Shown here: piece by piece, positions 1-61,527 of the stretch
How the letters are laid out: each line of letters begins with the position of its first letter
Position numbering within the stretch: position 1 is the first letter of the stretch
Assembly: GCA_025454875.1 (NCBI GenBank)
Contig: JALONP010000003.1
Location: forward strand, 62,001 to 126,000
Origin: Bacteroidia bacterium
GTDB lineage: Bacteria; Bacteroidota; Bacteroidia; UKL13-3
Reading direction: 5' to 3'
DNA: 64,000 bases
The notes under the pieces: model-generated
What the model was told of the DNA's origin: nothing
Databases searched by the model: none
Seen by the model: only the letters and a program-made list of their open reading frames with translations
Program-made: the position numbers and the translations under genes

Positions 1-999
1 CAACAGGTACTTATAGATGAGGACAGCATCATTTTTAATACAAATGGTAAAGTTCAAATAACATATAACCGAAGAAAATTAACTCTCCCAACTTTTAACC
101 AGAATGAGTACACAAAGTATGAATATACATACAACCAAGATCAGCCTGTAAGTGTCCGGGTCTCGAATGCTGTTCCTCCCAATAGCAATAATTGGAACGC
201 CTCTTTTTTTGTACAAATTCGATATGATCAAAATGAAAGGCGCGTATCAGACTCTATTCGGTATTATCAAAACAACTTTTCGTTAGTTATATACTATATA
301 TACGATTCACAAGGCAGGGTAATTGGCGAGTTCGGCTTAAATGGAAGCGACTCTGTAAATAAAATTACTTATGTATATGGGCCAGACGGCATTCTAACTT
401 CCGTTACCGAAGCTTTTGATAACAGTGCTGACACCTGGATGATACAATCTGCGGATACCTTCGAGTATGAAAATGGCAAAATTGTGAAACACTCCATGTT
501 CGGAACCATTTTTACAGGAACAGAAATTATTACAGGGCCTTATCAAATGGACCTTTACACTTATGATAATGAAGGAAAGTTGGCAAGTATTGTTGAACAT
601 GAATTTAATAATGGGTGGAAACCTAAAGATGAGTATAGCATGTTGTACAATGGAGCAACTTTGCAAATTGTTGAATTAAGAGCATATCAGAATGGAACAC
701 CCAATACTGATGTGTATTCAAGATTCCTTCCCTCACCACCCACCTCTTTAAATGAACAAAGCAAGTCCATTTCAACTAGTATCAACATTTACCCAAACCC
801 AACAAATGAGTACCTATACATAGAAGGTGTATCTAAGATAAAATCCATCAAGTTCATCAATGCAACAGGCCAAAGCATTGAGGCGAATATTGACAATGGC
901 CAAATTTCAACTGCAAATATCCCAGCTGGAATTTACCAAATATTGTTGGTTCATGAAGAACAAGTAGTGAAATTGGGAAAAATAGCTATTGAGCATTGA
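1..999 (+). CDS. C-terminal part of a T9SS-exported YD-repeat-like protein (5' end outside window)
   Basis: The frame is open from the first base, so the gene starts upstream and only its last 332 codons are visible. The body is made of short Tyr/Asp/Gly-rich strands such as YVYGPDGILTSVTE and YTYDNEGKLASIVEH, which resemble YD/RHS-type beta repeats. The last ~75 residues contain NIYPNPTNEYLYIEG, then a strand-rich module ending VKLGKIAIEH. This is a type A T9SS C-terminal sorting domain, so the protein is probably carried across the outer membrane and anchored at the surface or released. Its activity cannot be told from this part; adhesin or matrix protein is an inference. A strong terminator follows the stop codon. 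Confidence 0.8.
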   Translation, partial: QQVLIDEDSIIFNTNGKVQITYNRRKLTLPTFNQNEYTKYEYTYNQDQPVSVRVSNAVPPNSNNWNASFFVQIRYDQNERRVSDSIRYYQNNFSLVIYYIYDSQGRVIGEFGLNGSDSVNKITYVYGPDGILTSVTEAFDNSADTWMIQSADTFEYENGKIVKHSMFGTIFTGTEIITGPYQMDLYTYDNEGKLASIVEHEFNNGWKPKDEYSMLYNGATLQIVELRAYQNGTPNTDVYSRFLPSPPTSLNEQSKSISTSINIYPNPTNEYLYIEGVSKIKSIKFINATGQSIEANIDNGQISTANIPAGIYQILLVHEEQVVKLGKIAIEH

Positions 1000-1037
1000 T
1001 TATAAAAATAAGAAAACACCCCTTGTGCAAACCTCCT

Positions 1038-1068
1038 AAACGCAGCTCAAAATCGGGCTGCGTTTTTT
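1038..1068 (+). terminator. Intrinsic terminator after the T9SS protein gene
   Basis: A 9-bp perfect stem, AAACGCAGC pairing with GCTGCGTTT across a 10-nt loop, runs into a T-rich tail. It lies about 40 nt after the stop codon of the upstream gene. Confidence 0.85.
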
Positions 1069-1137
1069 GTGAGGAAAATTCTCGACATTCGCATCTCTTC
1101 AACTAAAAATATTTCTACATTAGAACATACTTCTTTG

Positions 1138-1587
1138 ATGAAAAAAATTGCAATCCCAATATTATTAGCTCTTATCCTAAACCTAGAAAGTAAAGCGCAG
1201 CTTGGAACTACTTTTTATCAATCACCTGGCTTTCTGACTGCAGGTTTGATGTATGAATATAACAACTTTGTTAGACCTGAGATACGTATTGGATCAACAA
1301 TTGGATCTTTCTCATCAACTAATGTATTCGAGTTACTCGTTAACATCGATATTGTAAATAAAGCTGATTATGAATTTTATGCAGGAGCAGGCTTGATAGC
1401 AGCAGGCTTTAATGAAAGAACAGGTATAAATCAAGCAATATTAGCCCTTTCCGTTCCTGTTGGATTCAACATTTACCCATTCGAAAATAAGCAATTTGGG
1501 CTGCACATTGATGTAAGCACTTTTGTATTCAATGAAACTTTCGATTTTCTACCCCGTTGGGGAATTCGATATAAATTTCGGAAATAA
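1138..1587 (+). CDS. Small outer-membrane beta-barrel-like protein
   Basis: 149 residues from the ATG at 1138. An upstream GTG at 1069 is in frame but lies directly on the preceding terminator, and starting at 1138 puts a clean signal peptide at the N-terminus (MKKIAIPILLALILNL, cleavage near KAQ). The mature part alternates hydrophobic and polar residues with Gly and aromatic residues, has AGAGLIAAGFNERTG in the middle and ends in RWGIRYKFRK, as expected for a small barrel with a C-terminal aromatic strand. No specific family is recognised. It is convergent with the HIT gene, with only 5 bp between the two stops. Confidence 0.6.
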   Translation: MKKIAIPILLALILNLESKAQLGTTFYQSPGFLTAGLMYEYNNFVRPEIRIGSTIGSFSSTNVFELLVNIDIVNKADYEFYAGAGLIAAGFNERTGINQAILALSVPVGFNIYPFENKQFGLHIDVSTFVFNETFDFLPRWGIRYKFRK

Positions 1588-1592
1588 TCGAA

Positions 1593-1985
1593 TTATATTG
1601 ATGTAGCTATTTTAGCAGCAATTGCGGTATATTCTTCAGGTGTGAACTCGACTCTGGCCTTTTCAAAATTTAGATCGCCTACTGCATTCATTGGAACCAA
1701 ATGAATATGTGCGTGTGGTACTTCCAAACCAATAACGGCAACACCTACCTTGGTGCAAGGAACGGCCTGCTTAATCGCCTTGGCTACTATCTTGGCAAAC
1801 AAAAACAACCCTGCATAGGCCTCATCTTGAATATCAAAAACATAATCAGTTGCTACTTTAGGAATAACCAAGGTATGTCCTGCTGTAAGTGGACGAACAT
1901 CTAAAAATGCTAAGTAATCTTGGGTTTCAGCAACTTTGTAACAAGGTATTTCACCAGCTACAATTTTTGAGAAAATCGTGCTCAT
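1593..1985 (-). CDS. HIT family protein (histidine-triad nucleotide hydrolase)
   Basis: 130 residues, the usual length for HIT/Hint proteins. The N-terminus STIFSKIVAGEIPCYKV is typical and the triad is in VPHAHIHLVPMN near residues 89-100. Hint-type proteins hydrolyse nucleoside phosphoramidates and related AMP conjugates in the cytoplasm; the natural substrate here is unknown. The start codon overlaps the greA stop by one base (TAATG), so the two genes are almost certainly co-transcribed and translationally coupled. Confidence 0.93.
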   Translation of the reverse strand: MSTIFSKIVAGEIPCYKVAETQDYLAFLDVRPLTAGHTLVIPKVATDYVFDIQDEAYAGLFLFAKIVAKAIKQAVPCTKVGVAVIGLEVPHAHIHLVPMNAVGDLNFEKARVEFTPEEYTAIAAKIATSI

Positions 1986-2458
1986 TATAAACTAATATTC
2001 AAAATTTCGAATTGGATAACTCCAGCTGGTGCTTGCACTTCTGCAATGTCTCCAACTTTTTTACCCATTAACCCCACGCCAATTGGCGATTTAAAAGATA
2101 TTTTACCCGTTTTAAAATCAGCCTCTTTTTCTGAAACCATGGTATACACCATTTCTTGTTTTGACTTTAGATTCTTGACTTTTACCTTACTCAACATCAT
2201 CACCTTGCTGGTGTCTAATTTTGATTCATCAATAATGCGGGTTTTGGTAATTAAATCTTCAAGAAGTGCAATGCGTGTTTCAAGTAATCCTTGATCTTCT
2301 TTTGCTGCATGGTATTCAGCATTTTCACTCAAATCACCTTTATCACGTGCATCTGCAATTTGCTTGGAAATAAACGGACGCTGCACATATTTTAATTCGT
2401 GCAATTCAGCTTGCATTTTTTCAAATCCTTCTTTCGATACGTAATTAATCTCTGCCAT
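1985..2458 (-). CDS. greA: Transcription elongation factor GreA
   Basis: 157 residues, the normal GreA length. The N-terminal coiled coil begins NYVSKEGFEKMQAEL and carries the acidic tip GDLSENAEYHAAKE (about residues 40-53), whose Asp and Glu help the RNA polymerase active site cleave backtracked RNA. The C-terminal FKBP-like domain contains FKSPIGVGLMGKKVGD. It rescues stalled polymerase in the cytoplasm. It is upstream of, and overlaps by one base, the HIT gene, and is separated from the surface operon behind it by a terminator. Confidence 0.96.
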   Translation of the reverse strand: MAEINYVSKEGFEKMQAELHELKYVQRPFISKQIADARDKGDLSENAEYHAAKEDQGLLETRIALLEDLITKTRIIDESKLDTSKVMMLSKVKVKNLKSKQEMVYTMVSEKEADFKTGKISFKSPIGVGLMGKKVGDIAEVQAPAGVIQFEILNISL

Positions 2459-2500
2459 GTACTTTGCTATTTACGTTTTACAATGTTTGTTATCAATTAT

Positions 2501-2537
2501 AAATAAAAGAAAACGTCCCGCTTTTGGCAGAACGTTT
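2501..2537 (-). terminator. Terminator of the TonB receptor / surface protein / PorV-like operon
   Basis: Read on the minus strand, an 11-bp stem with two G-U pairs (AAACGTTCTGC with GCGGGACGTTT, loop CAAAA) is followed by TCTTTTATTT. It lies 24 nt after the PorV-like gene and before greA. Confidence 0.75.
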
Positions 2538-2561
2538 CCTAAAATAAGTGAGACAAATATA

Positions 2562-3653
2562 TTAACTTTTTTTGTTTCCGAGGGTAAATCTTAAAGAGAT
2601 ATTATGTATTCCGTTAAACACGCGGGTTGGTGCGTATGAATAATCTAAACCCAACATGGTACCCGACTTAGATATTGGCATTTGCAAGGTTAAACCAGCA
2701 GCATACCCGTTGTATTGCGTACGCGAGTTGTCATCTGTTGTATTTTCTGCTTCAATACCATATCCAGCGCGAATCATTGCTGTTTCTTTGTAAGCATATT
2801 CAAGACCAACTGAGGTAATGTTATTTGAAAAAGCGTTGTAGTTAAAATTACCCAAAGCTGTTAATCTATGAAAGTATGTATCTTCAGTTTTATCTAGTCG
2901 CATATCATAAGCAGCACCAATATGAACAAGTGTAGGCAAGTTGTATGATTGAGACGCAAACAATGCACGTCTATCAGCCCCAGTTGCTACATTAATGGAA
3001 CGAAACGACAAACCAGAACCAGAATAAGAAGCATCTGGACCAATATTACGGACTGCGATTCCAAAACGGAAATCTTCCTTTTTAATCTTTTTCTTTGGGT
3101 TCAATGCAGTTTGATACATTACACCCATATCAAGTGCAACACCAGATGACCTTACGTTGGTAACACCCTCTGAGAATAATCTAACCGTAATACCTCCCGT
3201 AATACTATTCGAGAACTTTTTTGCATAAGCAGCACCCAAATTGAGTATTTGGGGTGTAAATGTGCCTAAAGTGGCATCAGGTAAAGCCTCTGTGGTTAAG
3301 GGTATATTACCCAAATCAAGGCGTGTTACTGACAATCCGATCACGTTTCCGTTTCCTAACGATTGAGCCAAGGTAGCATTGTTCATAAATACTCCAGTAC
3401 CTTGTAAGTACACCACTTGATTAATCATAAAGTCTGTTCGCTCCGTATATGCTAAACCAGCAACATTAAAATGCATTGCTTCAGGTCCTTTCAGGTGCAT
3501 TGAATTAGCACCCATGGTACCCGCTGAACGACCATAAGGATTAATCAGCAATTGAGTTGCACCAGCACCTCCAGCCCTATCTGGGTTTCCAGCAAAAACC
3601 TGCGTTGAGGCCGAAACTGCCGTTACCAATAAACAAAGTATGTATTTTTTCAT
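2562..3653 (-). CDS. PorV/PorQ family outer-membrane protein
   Basis: 363 residues from the ATG at 3653, which gives a signal peptide (MKKYILCLLVTAVSAS, cleavage near VFAG); an ATG five codons earlier is possible. The start of the mature protein (GGAGATQLLINPYGRSAG, then MHFNVAGLAY) matches the PorV/PorQ/UPF0164 outer-membrane barrel family, and the C-terminus ends in amphipathic strands (LRFTLGNKKS). In T9SS, PorV shuttles cargo from the translocon to the attachment complex. Whether this copy is the general PorV or a dedicated paralogue is unknown. Being last in an operon behind a 1312-aa exported protein and a TonB-dependent receptor argues for a dedicated partner. Confidence 0.75.
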   Translation of the reverse strand: MKKYILCLLVTAVSASTQVFAGNPDRAGGAGATQLLINPYGRSAGTMGANSMHLKGPEAMHFNVAGLAYTERTDFMINQVVYLQGTGVFMNNATLAQSLGNGNVIGLSVTRLDLGNIPLTTEALPDATLGTFTPQILNLGAAYAKKFSNSITGGITVRLFSEGVTNVRSSGVALDMGVMYQTALNPKKKIKKEDFRFGIAVRNIGPDASYSGSGLSFRSINVATGADRRALFASQSYNLPTLVHIGAAYDMRLDKTEDTYFHRLTALGNFNYNAFSNNITSVGLEYAYKETAMIRAGYGIEAENTTDDNSRTQYNGYAAGLTLQMPISKSGTMLGLDYSYAPTRVFNGIHNISLRFTLGNKKS

Positions 3654-20548: not shown

Positions 20549-20556
20549 TAGGTTTG
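20549..20556 (+). promoter_or_regulatory. Putative -7 box four bases before a start codon
   Basis: TAGGTTTG fits TAnnTTTG exactly, followed by AAAC and the ATG at 20561. This spacing would put transcription start at or near the ATG. Confidence 0.4.
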
Positions 20557-23032: not shown

Positions 23033-24328
23033 TTAAGCGGTAGCTTTAGTTGTTTTTTTTGCTGTTGGTTTTGCTGTTTCTTCAGTTGCAATCTCTGCAT
23101 CTAATTGTTTTTCCAACAAGGTAATGCGTTTTTTCATTTCGTAAATGGTTTTGTAAGTTTCATCCATTTCGCTGCGTGTAATCACCGGAATGTTTGCCAT
23201 AGCTTTTTCCATTTGTTCGTTGATATGCATTTTCAATTTGTTGCCAAATGTGTTTAATTCAGCTTGCATTTTTGAATATTCATCAGTAGAAAACAAAGCA
23301 ACAAAGTGCTTGTCGCTAATATTTAACCAATGGGTATACAAATTTGCAAAATCTTTCATTTCAGCACCATTGCGCAAATGAGCATATACCGTTTCTGCCA
23401 ACTCATCCATTGCTTTTGAACCTGTTTGGTACATGAGGTATTGCATTTCAGCGCTTTTCATTTGGTAGTTCGCAAATTCATTGGCCAAATCTTTCATGGC
23501 ATTGAGTTGCTGTGTTTGGTTGGTGTTACCAGCCAATTTCATCATTGGAGCGAACGCATGGTTCATTTGGTTGTATGCATTGTGATACATTTCCATTGCT
23601 TGTCCAAATAATTGATGTCCATTAGGCATCATGTTCATTGCATTTGATTTCCAGCCATCAAACATATTCTTATTTGCATCCATTGCACTGTACATGTTTT
23701 GTTGCATTTGTTGCATTCCAGGGAAAGCCATTGCTTGTTTGGTAAAATCGCCTTGCATATTGAACATTTTGTCCATCATATCTTTGAATAATGGTGCATT
23801 GAACAGTTGTTTGAATGTATCCAAGTTAAACGATTTATCATTCATCGACTTAAACATTGGCATCCACAACTGAAACAAGTTCATGTACATTTCAGCGTTG
23901 TTAAACATTCCACTCATCATGGTTTTAGCATCTGCATTGCTGTAATTTTTTGCCATTTCAGAGAATGTGTTGTTTAGGCTGTTCATCCAATTTTGGTACA
24001 AGTGCATGGTATTATCCATACCTGACTTCATCGAATCCATGTTCATCATGTTGTTCATGTTGTTAAACATCGGCATGTTGCTCATCCAAGCTTTGTTCAT
24101 ATCGACTTGGTTATTCATCCAGGTATTGTAGAACTCCATCGGATTGCTCATTTTTTGCTCAGCTGTGTTGTTAAAAAAAGCCATTTGAGAATCGTACCAT
24201 TTTTTAAAGAAATCAGAATTCATGTTTTCTGTGAACATGCTACGCATTTTTTCGGTTGCTGTTGACATGTTCTCCATTGCTTGCTTTTGAGCATTGGTAA
24301 AAGTTTCGAAAAGATTTTTAGTTTCCAT
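23033..24328 (-). CDS. phaE: Class III PHA synthase accessory subunit PhaE-like, methionine-rich
   Basis: 431 residues from the ATG at 24328 (METKNLFETFTNAQKQAMEN); a longer in-frame start is rejected because it adds a Cys-rich, non-conserved stretch. It is nearly all helical, with many Met, Asn, Phe and Trp: about 60 Met by hand count. A terminal coiled coil (YEMKKRITLLEKQLD) is followed by an Ala/Lys/Thr/Pro tail (AKPTAKKTTKATA). The FNAPLFKDMMDKMFNMQ region and the C-terminal coiled coil fit PhaE/PhaR-like subunits. Identity rests mainly on position before phaC and overall architecture; a phasin is the alternative. Confidence 0.78.
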   Translation of the reverse strand: METKNLFETFTNAQKQAMENMSTATEKMRSMFTENMNSDFFKKWYDSQMAFFNNTAEQKMSNPMEFYNTWMNNQVDMNKAWMSNMPMFNNMNNMMNMDSMKSGMDNTMHLYQNWMNSLNNTFSEMAKNYSNADAKTMMSGMFNNAEMYMNLFQLWMPMFKSMNDKSFNLDTFKQLFNAPLFKDMMDKMFNMQGDFTKQAMAFPGMQQMQQNMYSAMDANKNMFDGWKSNAMNMMPNGHQLFGQAMEMYHNAYNQMNHAFAPMMKLAGNTNQTQQLNAMKDLANEFANYQMKSAEMQYLMYQTGSKAMDELAETVYAHLRNGAEMKDFANLYTHWLNISDKHFVALFSTDEYSKMQAELNTFGNKLKMHINEQMEKAMANIPVITRSEMDETYKTIYEMKKRITLLEKQLDAEIATEETAKPTAKKTTKATA

Positions 24329-43043: not shown

Positions 43044-43531
43044 ACAGGATATACTTTTTTAAGCTTTTCTACAATTTCGAAAACTGCAGGGCAAATGGCT
43101 ACATTGTTCAGGGTTTCTTTAAATAATGTGTGCATCTTGCGTGAGTTGGTATGAGGATATTCTCTACATGCATTTGGGCGGTATTCGTATACAGAGCAAT
43201 AATTATCGGCACCCAAAAATGGGCAAGGCAATGTGTTTAATACATAATCATTGTCTTCATCAATATGCAAATAGGTTTCAACAAATTGGGCTGGGCGCAT
43301 TTTTAGATGATTCGCCAACCGTTCAATATCCTTTTGTTTAAACAGAGGTCCAGTTGTTTTGCAACAATTGGCACAAGTTAAACAGTCAATCCGTTCAAAA
43401 GCCTCATCATGCAATTCGGCAAATTGTTGGTCCAAGTTTTTAGGCAGGCGTTTTTTGAGTTGATCAAATAACTTTTTATGCTCACCTTTTGCTTTTATGG
43501 CTTTATGTTTAAGTAGGTTTAAATCTTCCAT
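43040..43531 (-). CDS. YkgJ-family cysteine cluster protein
   Basis: 163 residues. The N-terminus is helical and lysine-rich. Two Cys clusters, CLTCANCCKTTGP (about 51-63) and CPFLGADNYCSVYEYRPNAC (about 102-121), form the putative zinc- or iron-sulfur-binding site (UPF0153/PF03692). The start overlaps the stop of the Nramp fusion gene by one base (TAATG), so it belongs to the mntR operon. The link to manganese handling is inferred from position. Confidence 0.85.
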   Translation of the reverse strand: MEDLNLLKHKAIKAKGEHKKLFDQLKKRLPKNLDQQFAELHDEAFERIDCLTCANCCKTTGPLFKQKDIERLANHLKMRPAQFVETYLHIDEDNDYVLNTLPCPFLGADNYCSVYEYRPNACREYPHTNSRKMHTLFKETLNNVAICPAVFEIVEKLKKVYPV

Positions 43532-45405
43532 TACTTAACAATTAAAACTGGAATGCGAACTTGGTGCCTCACTTTATCAACGGTGCTTCCAAAAACAAGA
43601 TCTTTGATGCCATGATGCCCATGGGCTCCCATTACCAATAAATCACAGCGGCTGTTTTTAATAATCTCTACAATGCTATTGGCAGATTTACCATAACCCA
43701 ATTGTACCTGCACAGCGTAACCAAGTTGCATGAGGTTCTGTTGATACTTTTTTAAGTTCACTTCATCATGCAAGGTTTCATTATCTAAAATTTGCTCACC
43801 AAGCCTGATTGCACCAGCCGACTCCACCACATGGATAAGTAAATACGAAGCTTGCATACCACCGAGAGACAAGGCACGCTCAATGGTATGTTGATCCTTT
43901 TTCGAAAAATCAACAGTAACCGCAATATGATTATACACCATTGGCACAACCTGCTGTAGCTCTGCAGCTTCGCCATGCGGAATATTGGTACTGGTCCATT
44001 CTTGTTGTTTGATAAATGGATAACTAACAATGTATACCAAAAGAATGATTACAAAAAAAACAACAAGCAGGATCGCCATTTTTAGCATGAGGTAATTTGG
44101 ATGTGCAAGCGATGTGAAGAGTGTTGCAAGTTCTTCGTATACCAATTTGATATTTAAGCCAACAATAATCGCTGCGGCTACCCAAGCGGCAATCCTAACC
44201 CAAGTAGATATGGCGAATTGTTTCATTTGTTGCTTGTTTGAAGTGAAATGTATGAGTGGAATAACAGCAAAACCCAATTGCATGCTTAATACAACTTGGC
44301 TTAATACCAGCAATGAACCCAGTTTTTCTTCGCCAAAATAAAATATCGTGAAAAGCGCAGGTAAGATGGCAAGTAAACGCGTAAGAAGTCGCCTTATCCA
44401 AGGACTTATTCGCAGGTTTAAGTATCCTTCCATTACAATTTGCCCTGCTAAGGTTCCGGTAATGGTAGAGCTTTGTCCGGCACAAATAAGTGCAATCGCA
44501 AACAATGTTGGCGCCAAATTGCCGAATAAATTTTGAAGCAACAAATGTGCATCTGCAATATCACTCACTGCATTTAATCCATTGCGGTGAAAAGCAGAAG
44601 CTGCTAAAATTAAAATAGCTGCATTAACAAAAAATGCAAGGTTGAGTGCAATTGTTGAGTCAATTAAATTGAACTTAAGTGCTTGTCTGATTCCTTGTTC
44701 ATCTTTATTAAACTTGCGTGTTTGCACAAGTGACGAGTGCAAGTATAGATTGTGCGGCATTACGGTTGCTCCAATAATTCCAATTGCAATATACAATGAC
44801 TCATTCGTGAGTGCTTCGGGTATAAATCCTTTTGCCAATTGAGGCAAATTGGGTGTCACTATAACCATTTCAGCAATAAACGACATGCCGATGATGGCGA
44901 TTAAACTTACAATAAATACTTCCATTTTACGAATACCTTTATTGAGTAAAAACAACAATAAAAAGGTATCAAGTACCGTGATGATTACACCATAAGTTAA
45001 CGGCAAATTGAACAACAGTTTAAGTCCAATTGCCATACCGATTATTTCTGCAAGATCGCAGGCAGCAATGGCAATTTCAGCTAACACATAAAGCGATACA
45101 TTTGCCCAAGGTGCATATTGTTGTCGAGAAGCTTGTGCTAAATCTAAGCCACGAACCACTCCTAAGCGGGCTGCCAAACTTTGCAAAAGCAATGCCATCA
45201 AATTGCTCATAAGCAAAACCCAAATAAGTTGGTATCCAAACTGACTTCCACCAGCAATATCGGTGGCCCAATTCCCTGGATCCATATACCCAACACTTAC
45301 CATGTATGCTGGACCAAGAAAAGCCAGCAATGTTTTCCAAAAACCACGATTACCGGTAATATTTACCGATTCATGTACTTCACTTAACGACTTTTTCTGA
45401 CTCAT
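43531..45405 (-). CDS. mntH: Nramp-type Mn2+/Fe2+ transporter fused to a universal stress protein domain
   Basis: 624 residues. Residues 20-440 are an 11-helix Nramp transporter with the metal-site motifs GYMDPGNWATD and VMPHNLYLHSS. Residues about 475-624 are a UspA domain (HIAVTVDFSKKDQHTIERAL) with the ATP-loop pattern GAHGHHGIKDLVFGST. The proton-coupled transporter imports Mn2+ or Fe2+; the C-terminal domain may sense ATP or stress. It overlaps mntR by 4 bp (ATGA), so transporter and repressor are coupled. Specificity for Mn2+ is inferred from the MntR-type regulator. Confidence 0.92.
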   Translation of the reverse strand: MSQKKSLSEVHESVNITGNRGFWKTLLAFLGPAYMVSVGYMDPGNWATDIAGGSQFGYQLIWVLLMSNLMALLLQSLAARLGVVRGLDLAQASRQQYAPWANVSLYVLAEIAIAACDLAEIIGMAIGLKLLFNLPLTYGVIITVLDTFLLLFLLNKGIRKMEVFIVSLIAIIGMSFIAEMVIVTPNLPQLAKGFIPEALTNESLYIAIGIIGATVMPHNLYLHSSLVQTRKFNKDEQGIRQALKFNLIDSTIALNLAFFVNAAILILAASAFHRNGLNAVSDIADAHLLLQNLFGNLAPTLFAIALICAGQSSTITGTLAGQIVMEGYLNLRISPWIRRLLTRLLAILPALFTIFYFGEEKLGSLLVLSQVVLSMQLGFAVIPLIHFTSNKQQMKQFAISTWVRIAAWVAAAIIVGLNIKLVYEELATLFTSLAHPNYLMLKMAILLVVFFVIILLVYIVSYPFIKQQEWTSTNIPHGEAAELQQVVPMVYNHIAVTVDFSKKDQHTIERALSLGGMQASYLLIHVVESAGAIRLGEQILDNETLHDEVNLKKYQQNLMQLGYAVQVQLGYGKSANSIVEIIKNSRCDLLVMGAHGHHGIKDLVFGSTVDKVRHQVRIPVLIVK

Positions 45406-46067
45406 GCTTTAACTTGTGTTACCCAGACATTTTTAACAATTTCTTTGCTCGCATATACGGCAGGTTTGCGGTTAATTGAAACCAACACAGAACCATCAAA
45501 TGCATTTACTTCTTTGATGAGCAGTTCGGTTCCTAATAACAATCCAATTTTTTCGAGGTGCTTTAAAAATGCAACTGAATGGTGCGCAACTCCACTCATA
45601 ATTGCCTTTTGTCCTGGAGTAAGGGCAGACAATAAAATGACATGTGTTTGTTGAAATTGTCCGTTTTTCCCTGGAATAGGATCTCCGTGAGGATCATGTG
45701 TTGGATTACCAAGGAAATCATCTAATTTATCAATTAACAGTTCTGAATGTATATGCTCCAGTTGTTCAGCTATATCATGTACCTCCTCCCATCCAAACTT
45801 TAATTTATCGTATAAAAAAACTTCCCAGAGACGGTGTTTCCTTACCGTTTCTATTGCAACCAACTTGCCCTTTTCAGTTAGCGTTACCCCACGGTATTTT
45901 TCATATTTAAGAAGCTTTTTATCTGAAAGTTTTTTAATCATGTCGGTGACAGACGCTGCTTTTGTATCGAGCAATTCGGCAATTGAATTGGTCGTTATAT
46001 TGCGTGCATCCACTTCAGACAACTTATAAATGGCTTTTAAATAATTTTCTTCAGTATATGAGTACAT
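45402..46067 (-). CDS. mntR: MntR/DtxR-family metal-dependent repressor
   Basis: 221 residues. A winged helix (1-75: YTEENYLKAIYKL, AASVTDMIKKLSDKKLL), a dimerisation domain (75-140) with metal ligands in AEQLEHIHSELL, and a C-terminal FeoA/SH3-like domain (about 145-215). The ligand that is Cys102 in DtxR is Glu here, as in Mn2+-specific MntR. It starts the operon mntR-mntH-YkgJ. A 16-bp palindrome and a TATATTTG box lie just upstream, so auto-repression in high Mn2+ is likely. Confidence 0.92.
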   Translation of the reverse strand: MYSYTEENYLKAIYKLSEVDARNITTNSIAELLDTKAASVTDMIKKLSDKKLLKYEKYRGVTLTEKGKLVAIETVRKHRLWEVFLYDKLKFGWEEVHDIAEQLEHIHSELLIDKLDDFLGNPTHDPHGDPIPGKNGQFQQTHVILLSALTPGQKAIMSGVAHHSVAFLKHLEKIGLLLGTELLIKEVNAFDGSVLVSINRKPAVYASKEIVKNVWVTQVKA

Positions 46068-46071
46068 ATTG

Positions 46072-46079
46072 CAAATATA
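46072..46079 (-). promoter_or_regulatory. Putative -7 box of the mntR operon, four bases before the start codon
   Basis: TATATTTG on the minus strand (exact consensus), then CAAT and the ATG at 46067. This predicts a leaderless mRNA. Confidence 0.5.
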
Positions 46080-46080
46080 A

Positions 46081-46096
46081 TTTAGACTAGTCGAAA
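46081..46096. promoter_or_regulatory. Candidate MntR operator
   Basis: TTTAGACTAGTCGAAA is a 16-bp palindrome with one mismatched pair per half and a perfect GACTAGTC core. It touches the -7 box of mntR, where a bound repressor would block RNA polymerase. Confidence 0.55.
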
Positions 46097-47094: not shown

Positions 47095-47136
47095 GTTAGT
47101 AGATACTTTAAAAAGCCAAGTATTCGTTATAATGCA

Positions 47137-47144
47137 TATTTTTG
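47137..47144 (+). promoter_or_regulatory. Putative -7 box of porQ, four bases before the start codon
   Basis: TATTTTTG (exact TAnnTTTG), then GAAA and the GTG at 47149. No -33 TTG is obvious. Confidence 0.4.
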
Positions 47145-47148
47145 GAAA

Positions 47149-48207
47149 GTGAATCGCAGCATTCTTACGTTATTTTTAATTGTTGTATCTGCAGCAGTAC
47201 AAGCACAAATTGGAGGTAGTAGCGCCTTTTCATTTATTTCAGTGCAGCCCAATGCACGAATTGCTGCTTTGGGAGGAACAGCGATTTCGATTGTAGATAA
47301 CGATATGAACTTAGCCATTCAAAATCCATCATTGTTGCGCAAAGAAATGCATAATCAAGTTACTTACAACCATGTATTTTTATTTGAAAATATTGGTTCG
47401 GGATTCGCTGGTTTTACTAAACATTTCGATAGTATTGGAACATTTACCGCAGGTATTCAATATATCAATTACGGAGATTTTAAACGCACCACCCCAAATG
47501 GCGATATCATTGGATCGTTTAATGCCGGAGAGTACTGCATGAATCTTGGTTACGGTAAAAGATTGAGTGATTACTTTTCGGTAGGTGGTCAAGTAAAGTT
47601 TATTTATTCTTCTTTAGCCGACTATACTGCCTTAGGCCTAGCAATTGATGGTGGCGTAACATACAATAACGAAAAACGCTTGTTTACGATGGCCGCAACG
47701 GTGAACAATATAGGCCAACAGTTTAAGGGTTATACAGAGGGCTCTACTGAAAATTTACCTACCAATATTAGGTTTGCTTTTTCCAAACGGTTTAAACATA
47801 ATCCATTCAGATTTACCATCGCTGCAAACCATCTGGAACGTGCGGGCAAATTGCTGTACCAAAACAATAACCGACCTGGCACCAGACGAGACCTTGAAAC
47901 GGGTGAGGTTATTCCAGAAAATTTTTCAATTGCAGAAAGGGCGCTTTCACACCTCACTGTAAGCTCAGAGGTACTTTTCGGAAAGTACTTTTACCTAGCT
48001 CTAGGGTATAATTATTTAAGGCGATATGAAATGCAACTTGATGATGTGGGAGGCTTTACTGGTTTTACATGGGGTTTTGGATTAAAGGTAAAAAAAATAC
48101 AGCTTGCCTATGGCAACTCGGGTTATTATGTTGGCAGAGGCAGCAATCACTTGTCTTTTATATTTAACCTAAACGATTTTAAGAAAAAGAAAAAGGCATC
48201 CTCTTAG
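47149..48207 (+). CDS. porQ: T9SS outer-membrane protein PorQ
   Basis: 352 residues from a GTG. Signal peptide at 1-19 (ILTLFLIVVSAAVQAQ). FSFISVQPNARIAALGGTAI and LAIQNPSLLRKEMHNQ are the PorQ family start; the barrel continues to a C-terminal strand HLSFIFNLNDF and a basic tail. PorQ works with PorU, PorV and PorZ in the attachment complex that processes T9SS cargo. cmk follows after 34 bp; from memory porQ and cmk are also neighbours in Porphyromonas. Confidence 0.88.
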   Translation: MNRSILTLFLIVVSAAVQAQIGGSSAFSFISVQPNARIAALGGTAISIVDNDMNLAIQNPSLLRKEMHNQVTYNHVFLFENIGSGFAGFTKHFDSIGTFTAGIQYINYGDFKRTTPNGDIIGSFNAGEYCMNLGYGKRLSDYFSVGGQVKFIYSSLADYTALGLAIDGGVTYNNEKRLFTMAATVNNIGQQFKGYTEGSTENLPTNIRFAFSKRFKHNPFRFTIAANHLERAGKLLYQNNNRPGTRRDLETGEVIPENFSIAERALSHLTVSSEVLFGKYFYLALGYNYLRRYEMQLDDVGGFTGFTWGFGLKVKKIQLAYGNSGYYVGRGSNHLSFIFNLNDFKKKKKASS

Positions 48208-60115: not shown

Positions 60116-60848
60116 ATGATGCTAATTTTTGCTCAATAATACGATAAACTTCTTGCTTTAAGGTATCCACATCGTCAATTGTTAAACCAACGGTTTGTAT
60201 TGGCTGATGAACGTACTGAATAATACGTGAAGGGCGGAACCTAATCTTACCTTGATCGGGTAATGCAATCCAATTGCCAATAATTGTAACAGGTAGAATG
60301 GGTGTTTGGGTTTCAATGGCCAAACGAAAAGCCCCTTCTTTGAACCTGGCCAATTTTGGCGCACCCACAGGAATCGTACCCTCTGGAAAAATTACAATGC
60401 TTCTGCGTTCTTCCATCAATTGTTGTTTGGCTTGGTGAAATGCCCAAGCTGAGTGGCGAATATTTTTGCGATCAACAGCGATATCGATGGTGCGAAAAAA
60501 GATTCCAAAAAGAGGAATACGAGACAACTCTATTTTTGCCATAAAGTTCACAAACATGGGTAACTTCACGGTTAATGTTGGAATATCCAAGTAAGATGTA
60601 TGGTTTGCCGTGACTACATATGCTTGGTTCCAATCAATTGGCACTTCTTCTATTTGTTTCACTCTTAACCCACCTAATACAAACAACCATTTACCCCAAA
60701 TTTTACGTGTAATGTGACCTAAATGATACCACTCTTTTCGGCTTAAAAACACTAAAAAAAATGGATATGTTAACACAAAACCAATAAATGTAACAAGGGC
60801 GAAATAAAGTGCTAAAACAACCTTGAATGCTTCCTTCAATTTACTCAT
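60099..60848 (-). CDS. plsC: 1-acyl-sn-glycerol-3-phosphate acyltransferase
   Basis: 249 residues. A membrane segment at about 10-33 precedes the acyltransferase motifs: NHTSYLD (HX4D, about 78-84), IDRKNIRH-like second motif (VDRKNIRHS), FPEGT (about 150) and a Pro-rich fourth motif, VTIIGNWIALPD. It makes phosphatidic acid from lysophosphatidic acid and an acyl donor at the inner membrane. It overlaps pyrE by 8 bp and gatC by 17 bp. Confidence 0.94.
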   Translation of the reverse strand: MSKLKEAFKVVLALYFALVTFIGFVLTYPFFLVFLSRKEWYHLGHITRKIWGKWLFVLGGLRVKQIEEVPIDWNQAYVVTANHTSYLDIPTLTVKLPMFVNFMAKIELSRIPLFGIFFRTIDIAVDRKNIRHSAWAFHQAKQQLMEERRSIVIFPEGTIPVGAPKLARFKEGAFRLAIETQTPILPVTIIGNWIALPDQGKIRFRPSRIIQYVHQPIQTVGLTIDDVDTLKQEVYRIIEQKLASYGYFE

Positions 60849-61515
60849 TATTCGAGTTGCTAATTATAGTTGACTGCTGCATCCATGTTTGCGGAGATTG
60901 CCGCCATTCGTTCAGGACAGCGACTTGCTCAGGTTGCACAATTTTTTGCTTTAATGCTACCTCAATCAAGGTATTGTAGTTGCTTAAGGCAAAATAAGGG
61001 CAATTTTCATTTGCAAATGCATTTGCTGCCACATCAAACCCATAGGTAAATATAGCAACTATACCCAAGACCTCGCAACCATACTCCTTTAAATTTTGAA
61101 CGGCTTGCAGACTGCTTTTTCCTGTAGAAACAAGATCCTCAACCACCACTACCTTTTGGCCGGGTTTAATATCTCCTTCCACTTGTTTTCCCATACCATG
61201 TTTTTTGGCTTCGGAACGGATATAACCAAATGGTAGTTTCAACTCATCAGCAGCTAAAACCCCAGGAGCAATACCTGCAGTAGCAACACCAATAATGGCT
61301 TCGGCATTTGCAAAATGGTTACGTACCAAGTTGCCTAGTTCTTGCTTAATAAATGTACGTGCCTCTGGGAACGAGAGAGATAACCTGTTATCGCTGTATA
61401 TTGGAGATTTCCAACCAGAGGTCCATGTGAATGGTTGGTTGGGGCTTAAACGAATTGCATTTATTTGCAATAAATATTCTGCTATCTTAGCGGCAGTTTC
61501 ATTGGATTGTTGCAT
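60841..61515 (-). CDS. pyrE: Orotate phosphoribosyltransferase
   Basis: 224 residues from the ATG at 61515, MQQSNETAAKIAEYLLQIN; longer in-frame starts add unrelated residues. The substrate segment TWTSGWKSPIYSDNR and the PRPP loop VVVVEDLVSTGKSSL (about 124-138) are present. It makes orotidine 5'-phosphate in pyrimidine synthesis. It is the first gene of pyrE-plsC-gatC-ABC. Only 7 bp separate its start from that of the divergent Nudix gene. Confidence 0.95.
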   Translation of the reverse strand: MQQSNETAAKIAEYLLQINAIRLSPNQPFTWTSGWKSPIYSDNRLSLSFPEARTFIKQELGNLVRNHFANAEAIIGVATAGIAPGVLAADELKLPFGYIRSEAKKHGMGKQVEGDIKPGQKVVVVEDLVSTGKSSLQAVQNLKEYGCEVLGIVAIFTYGFDVAANAFANENCPYFALSNYNTLIEVALKQKIVQPEQVAVLNEWRQSPQTWMQQSTIISNSNNE

Positions 61516-61519
61516 CACG

Positions 61520-61527
61520 CAAATGTA
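61520..61527 (-). promoter_or_regulatory. Putative -7 box of pyrE, four bases before the start codon
   Basis: TACATTTG on the minus strand (exact TAnnTTTG), then CGTG and the ATG at 61515. The box overlaps the start codon of the divergent Nudix gene. Confidence 0.45.

Follow-up and report, generated by a model that had tools for sequence, protein, structure and literature searches.

A TAnnTTTG box four bases before the start codon suggests leaderless mRNAs for a minority of genes in a UKL13-3 Bacteroidia genome

RESULTS

Four box-to-start arrangements in the window

The window, the whole 64,000-nt stretch of Bacteroidia (UKL13-3 lineage) DNA that was analyzed, carries four open reading frames at which the octamer TAnnTTTG is followed by exactly four bases and a start codon, a spacing denoted here as N4 (Table 1). 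An earlier note had reported this arrangement for mntR, pyrE, porQ, and a 111-aa gene, and all four strings match exactly. The first of these, mntR, heads an operon that continues with mntH, which encodes an Nramp transporter carrying a universal stress protein (Usp) domain fused at its C terminus (positions 43531 to 45405), and with a gene for a CxxCxxCC protein. The start codons of mntR and pyrE align at residue 1 across relatives, and the GTG start of porQ is followed by a signal peptide. In addition, the boxes of mntR, pyrE, and porQ fit TAHHTTTG, the more restrictive form of the -7 box, whereas that of the 111-aa open reading frame does not.

Table 1. Genes, boxes, and candidate regulatory elements in the window
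Feature	Position	Strand	Element and linker	Basis
Box at N4 to ATG 20561 of the 111-aa open reading frame	20549..20556	+	TAGGTTTG, AAAC	Judged a chance match
mntR-type DtxR-family regulator, 221 aa, predicted leaderless from the A of ATG 46067	45402..46067	-		Pfam Fe_dep_repress, Fe_dep_repr_C, FeoA
Predicted mntR -7 box, N4 to ATG 46067	46072..46079	-	TATATTTG, CAAT	Exact match; N4 in family orthologs
Probable MntR operator, imperfect copy of palindrome	46081..46096	.	TTTAGRCNNGYCTAAA	1 mismatch to consensus in relatives
CGTT element (ECF/SM6-like), rival promoter with short leader	47125..47128	+	CGTT	Conserved upstream of porQ
porQ box, N4 to GTG 47149	47137..47144	+	TATTTTTG, GAAA	Exact match; N4 to N8 in near relatives
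porQ, 352 aa, GTG start then signal peptide	47149..48207	+		NCBIfam NF033711 above cut-off; translation
pyrE, 224 aa, predicted leaderless	60841..61515	-		NCBIfam TIGR00336 above cut-off; start conserved
Predicted pyrE -7 box, N4 to ATG 61515	61520..61527	-	TACATTTG, CGTG	Most relatives keep the box, at N4 to N7

Across the window as a whole, TAnnTTTG is not overrepresented, with 70 matches against 94 expected. Its excess is positional, relative to gene starts: an N4 box precedes 3 of the 53 called starts, where 0.05 would be expected (P about 2e-5). Two further N4 copies, at positions 23779 and 46771, precede no called gene start.

The 111-aa open reading frame was rejected as an N4 instance on three grounds. 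Its box, TAGGTTTG, has G at both variable positions and so departs from TAHHTTTG, the consensus given with the promoter maps in PMC6847099, in which G at both positions is nearly absent from the mapped promoters described. The reading frame has a weak coding score and a start unsupported by the gene caller. Finally, its only ortholog matches from residues 12 to 14 onward and has no box.

Spacing of the box relative to gene starts

Gene starts were called with a home-made hexamer-type caller that is blind to promoters, both in 1.55 Mb of the source genome (2.98 Mb in 37 contigs; the sample includes the window) and in 0.4 Mb each from a relative of the same genus (G001) and one of the same family (G018). 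All blind figures refer to 857 called starts of the source genome, excluding the window and also excluding one batch of loci (L021 to L040), because that batch had been picked with the list of N4 matches in view. Within this blind set, exact boxes at N0 through N7 number 0, 1, 0, 0, 13, 0, 9, and 5, against a far-upstream background of 0.7 per position. The 13 boxes at N4 compare with 0.79 expected under a first-order Markov model of upstream DNA (P about 3e-12), and control motifs made by reversing or complementing the box give flat spacing profiles. The peak at N4 that the earlier note had anticipated for a count of boxes relative to gene starts is therefore present, and sharp, in the sampled 1.55 Mb.

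The same enrichment appears within genes of the source genome, where an N4 box precedes 16 of 910 called starts (1.8%) as opposed to 4 of the 20,971 internal ATGs of the same genes (0.02%), a difference of about 90-fold. Raw strings show no such excess, the pattern TANNTTTGN4ATG occurring 77 times genome-wide and its reversed counterpart 76 times; most of these matches lie inside genes, which makes raw counts uninformative and is the reason that the test was restricted to gene starts.

Boxes with one mismatch are enriched at N4, N5, and N6 alike (35, 24, and 28, against about 12), and in G001 exact boxes at these spacings number 5, 3, and 5 against a background of 0.3. The 0.4-Mb sample of G018 contains no exact N4 box, only boxes at N6 and N7; the sharp N4 peak therefore does not extend to all genes throughout the family. 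Among starts with an exact box at most 60 bases upstream, the share at N3 to N7 is 19% in the source genome (without L021 to L040), 31% in G001, and 15% in G018. The N4 geometry is used by a minority: 2% of starts when an exact box is required, and about 8% above background when N4 to N6 and one-mismatch boxes are included. The blind set, with no box at N5 but 13 at N4 and 9 at N6, had raised the idea that N5 is avoided as a rule; this was dropped because one-mismatch boxes, G001, and pyrE orthologs all use N5. The bases just before the ATG are A in 28% of cases in N4 genes versus 38%, which is a trend only (P = 0.055).

Conservation of the mntR spacing

The strongest single candidate for a leaderless mRNA is mntR, whose product is conserved in relatives from residue 1 (MYSYTEENY). 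An exact box stands at N4 in 29 of 32 same-family orthologs, joined to the ATG by 24 different four-base linkers; of the remaining three orthologs, two keep the N4 spacing with a box that has one mismatch. Upstream of the box lies the palindrome TTTAGRCNNGYCTAAA, at a distance of 1 bp in the window and with gaps of 1 to 8 across the family orthologs, indicating that small indels do occur in the mntR promoter but not between the box and the ATG. A scan of GTDB genomes found N4 in 16 of 18 mntR orthologs of at least 58% identity. Among Flavobacteriaceae and other, more distant lineages in that scan, the box stands mostly at N14 to N29, with a few cases at N4 to N6 and none at N7 to N13.

The assignment to the MntR/DtxR regulators draws on winged-helix, metal-binding, and FeoA domains, the palindrome as putative operator, and the Nramp operon partner. 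Hits to the NCBIfam MntR models fall short of the cut-offs (159.5 versus 350), and the case for manganese specificity therefore depends on the neighboring mntH (586 bits; cut-off, 430). In all likelihood the palindrome is an MntR operator. Because it lies just upstream of the -7 box, we propose autorepression: MntR bound there would probably obstruct the core promoter and so keep down expression of the leaderless operon, mntR-mntH, to which its own gene belongs. A second near-perfect MntR-type palindrome occurs elsewhere in the genome sample (L017, 3239 to 3254), upstream of a TonB-dependent receptor gene (941 to 3148, minus strand) that is a candidate MntR target.

pyrE, murI, and porQ

The case for pyrE as a leaderless instance is supported by its conserved start and box. 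pyrE and a NUDIX gene diverge, with their start codons only 7 bp apart (61515 to 61523), and the plus strand of the box TACATTTG holds the NUDIX ATG (61523). Each promoter would consequently lie inside the coding sequence of the other gene, and conservation of the pyrE box may come partly from the NUDIX start. A further N4 gene, murI, was found in the genome sample; its spacing recurs exactly in G018 and with one mismatch in three other genomes (G001, G006, and G009). For pyrE and porQ, the spacing drifts to N5 to N8 in some relatives, implying leaders of 1 to 4 nt rather than strictly none.

At porQ, a second candidate promoter is present. About 20 relatives, which belong to several families, have a conserved CGTT(TAA) element before the gene (L110 to L137), preceded in turn by an ACT-like motif some 16 to 17 bp upstream, and CGTT is conserved more widely than the box, including where TAnnTTTG has been lost. 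The pair looks like an ECF-type (SigP/SM6-like) promoter of a T9SS gene that overlaps the sigma-A box. In Flavobacterium psychrophilum, as reported in PMC9723704, the CGT-box motif SM6 drives the T9SS genes gldN and porU as well as an ECF sigma gene. Given this precedent and the conservation of CGTT, porQ may be transcribed from an ECF-sigma (SigP-like) promoter with CGTT as its -10 element and a short leader of about 10 to 15 nt, which makes porQ ambiguous as a leaderless instance.

Extended to the class, the situation at porQ would mean that N4 boxes are secondary promoters and that the main transcripts carry leaders from promoters elsewhere. We consider this unlikely, since the CGTT element is seen at porQ only, with no such element at mntR or murI, and the porQ box TATTTTTG is itself conserved at N4 to N8 in the porQ family set.

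Promoter or ribosome signal

The location of N4 boxes favors a primary promoter that abuts the start. They precede 1 of 277 operon-internal genes and 24 of 919 others, a significant depletion inside operons (P = 0.016), and N4 genes are nearly always operon heads. A point on the other side is that the -33 element (TTTG/TTG, at 17 to 23 bp) shows no enrichment before N4 boxes: a -33 TTG accompanies 21% of N4 promoters (n = 19 only), against 22% in the background and 35% of 113 leadered promoters. The -33 element is faint in Flavobacterium johnsoniae too, as described in PMC6847099. Some boxes (L061, near 8014; L038, near 12939; L049, near 2265) abut the T-run of the terminator hairpin of the upstream gene, which places terminator, promoter, and start codon together within a span of about 50 bp.

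Alternatively, TTTG-N4-ATG could be a signal for translation initiation, that is, a Bacteroidota ribosome-binding element, because TTTG sits where a Shine-Dalgarno sequence would and Bacteroidota are described as having no such sequences (PMC6847099). Several observations make this very improbable. TTTG without the TA shows no excess at N4 (6 occurrences, against a mean of 6.2), which identifies the signal as the sigma-A -7 box and not a translational TTTG. Moreover, N4 boxes are scarce within operons, although the genes there would have the greatest need of a ribosome signal, and the linker letters next to the ATG are free among the mntR orthologs. The least tenable reading is chance matching in AT-rich upstream DNA, which agrees with the raw string counts and holds for the 111-aa open reading frame and the copies at 23779 and 46771, but the excess in the blind set, the enrichment over internal ATGs, and the exact spacing conserved at mntR refute it at the level of the N4 class, though not gene by gene.

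DISCUSSION

The boxes at N4 are very probably sigma-A promoters that abut start codons and would give rise to leaderless mRNAs in a minority of operon-head genes of the source genome. In this model, TAnnTTTG would act as the -7 element of primary-sigma (sigma-ABfr type) promoters, from which RNA polymerase would start 4 to 5 nt past the G of the box, in keeping with the -7 box 4 or 5 nt before the transcription start site (TSS) reported for F. johnsoniae (PMC6847099). With the start codon at N4, the first transcribed base would be the A (or G) of the start codon itself, leaving the mRNA without a leader. The position of the TSS, the absence of a leader, translation from a 5'-terminal AUG, and autoregulation of mntR are all predictions from the box, its spacing, its excess, and its conservation.

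The proposal in the earlier note that such mRNAs are leaderless gains good in silico support from the N4 peak, the need for the full TA..TTTG box, and the retention of N4 at mntR with free linkers, from which we infer leaderlessness itself. As to the four instances, mntR and pyrE stand, porQ is ambiguous because of its conserved CGTT element, and the 111-aa gene is discounted as a chance match. The suggestion that these instances represent a gene class does not hold in a functional sense, because N4 genes share no function: they encode ABC-F, SDR, pseudouridine synthase, MurI, CorA, RlmB, MarC-type, RND adaptor, phosphoglycerate mutase, MntR, PyrE, and PorQ proteins.

A stronger version of the model is that mntR is locked in the leaderless state in the UKL13-3-like family, N4 being selected while the linker and the gap to the operator drift, and that implied leaders across the class are bimodal (0 to 2 nt or at least 10 nt, with few between). 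On the orthologs compared here, we regard the chances of this version as evenly balanced. Bacteroidota ribosomes operate without the use of Shine-Dalgarno sequences, and if this version is true, mntR would be a conserved and regulated leaderless gene in a phylum lacking them, suggesting that leaders of 3 to 9 nt are avoided. The mntR gene would serve as a conserved natural test case for initiation at a 5'-terminal AUG and for a switch between leadered and leaderless forms within one gene. More generally, start codons set at the TSS by promoter spacing would provide a simple sequence rule for recognizing leaderless genes and would improve start calls in Bacteroidota.

The box in the source genome is the same as that of known Bacteroidota primary-sigma promoters (TAnnTTTG/TAHHTTTG, as given in PMC6847099), with the difference that in a minority of its genes the start codon stands where the TSS would fall. 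Leaderless mRNAs of other Bacteroidota likewise form a minority class served by the same promoter, as far as the published accounts drawn on here describe them, whereas the UKL13-3 class is deduced from sequence. Leaderless transcripts amount to 5.5% in F. psychrophilum (PMC9723704), 3.7% of leaders are under 10 nt in Bacteroides thetaiotaomicron (PMC7366714), and 13% of F. johnsoniae cases have leaders of at most 10 nt, so that leaderless ones make up at most 13% (PMC6847099). In the portions of these three accounts drawn on here, neither a sharp single-base N4 peak nor a family-wide spacing like that of mntR is described for leaderless mRNAs. A promoter box at a fixed distance before the start also marks the TA-led leaderless genes of Actinobacteria and Deinococcus-Thermus, but there the box is of the Pribnow type (TANNNT) and the genes involved exceed 20% (PMC3160421). 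Because that survey took the Pribnow box as its reference, the TAnnTTTG class may sit among the Bacteroidetes genes it termed "atypical" (PMC3160421). That leaderless genes are a minority in Bacteroidota, according to the accounts cited, and that a box before the start can mark them in other phyla is already known; the present analysis adds the sharp N4 peak in the UKL13-3 lineage, together with the family-wide fixed spacing predicted to keep mntR leaderless.
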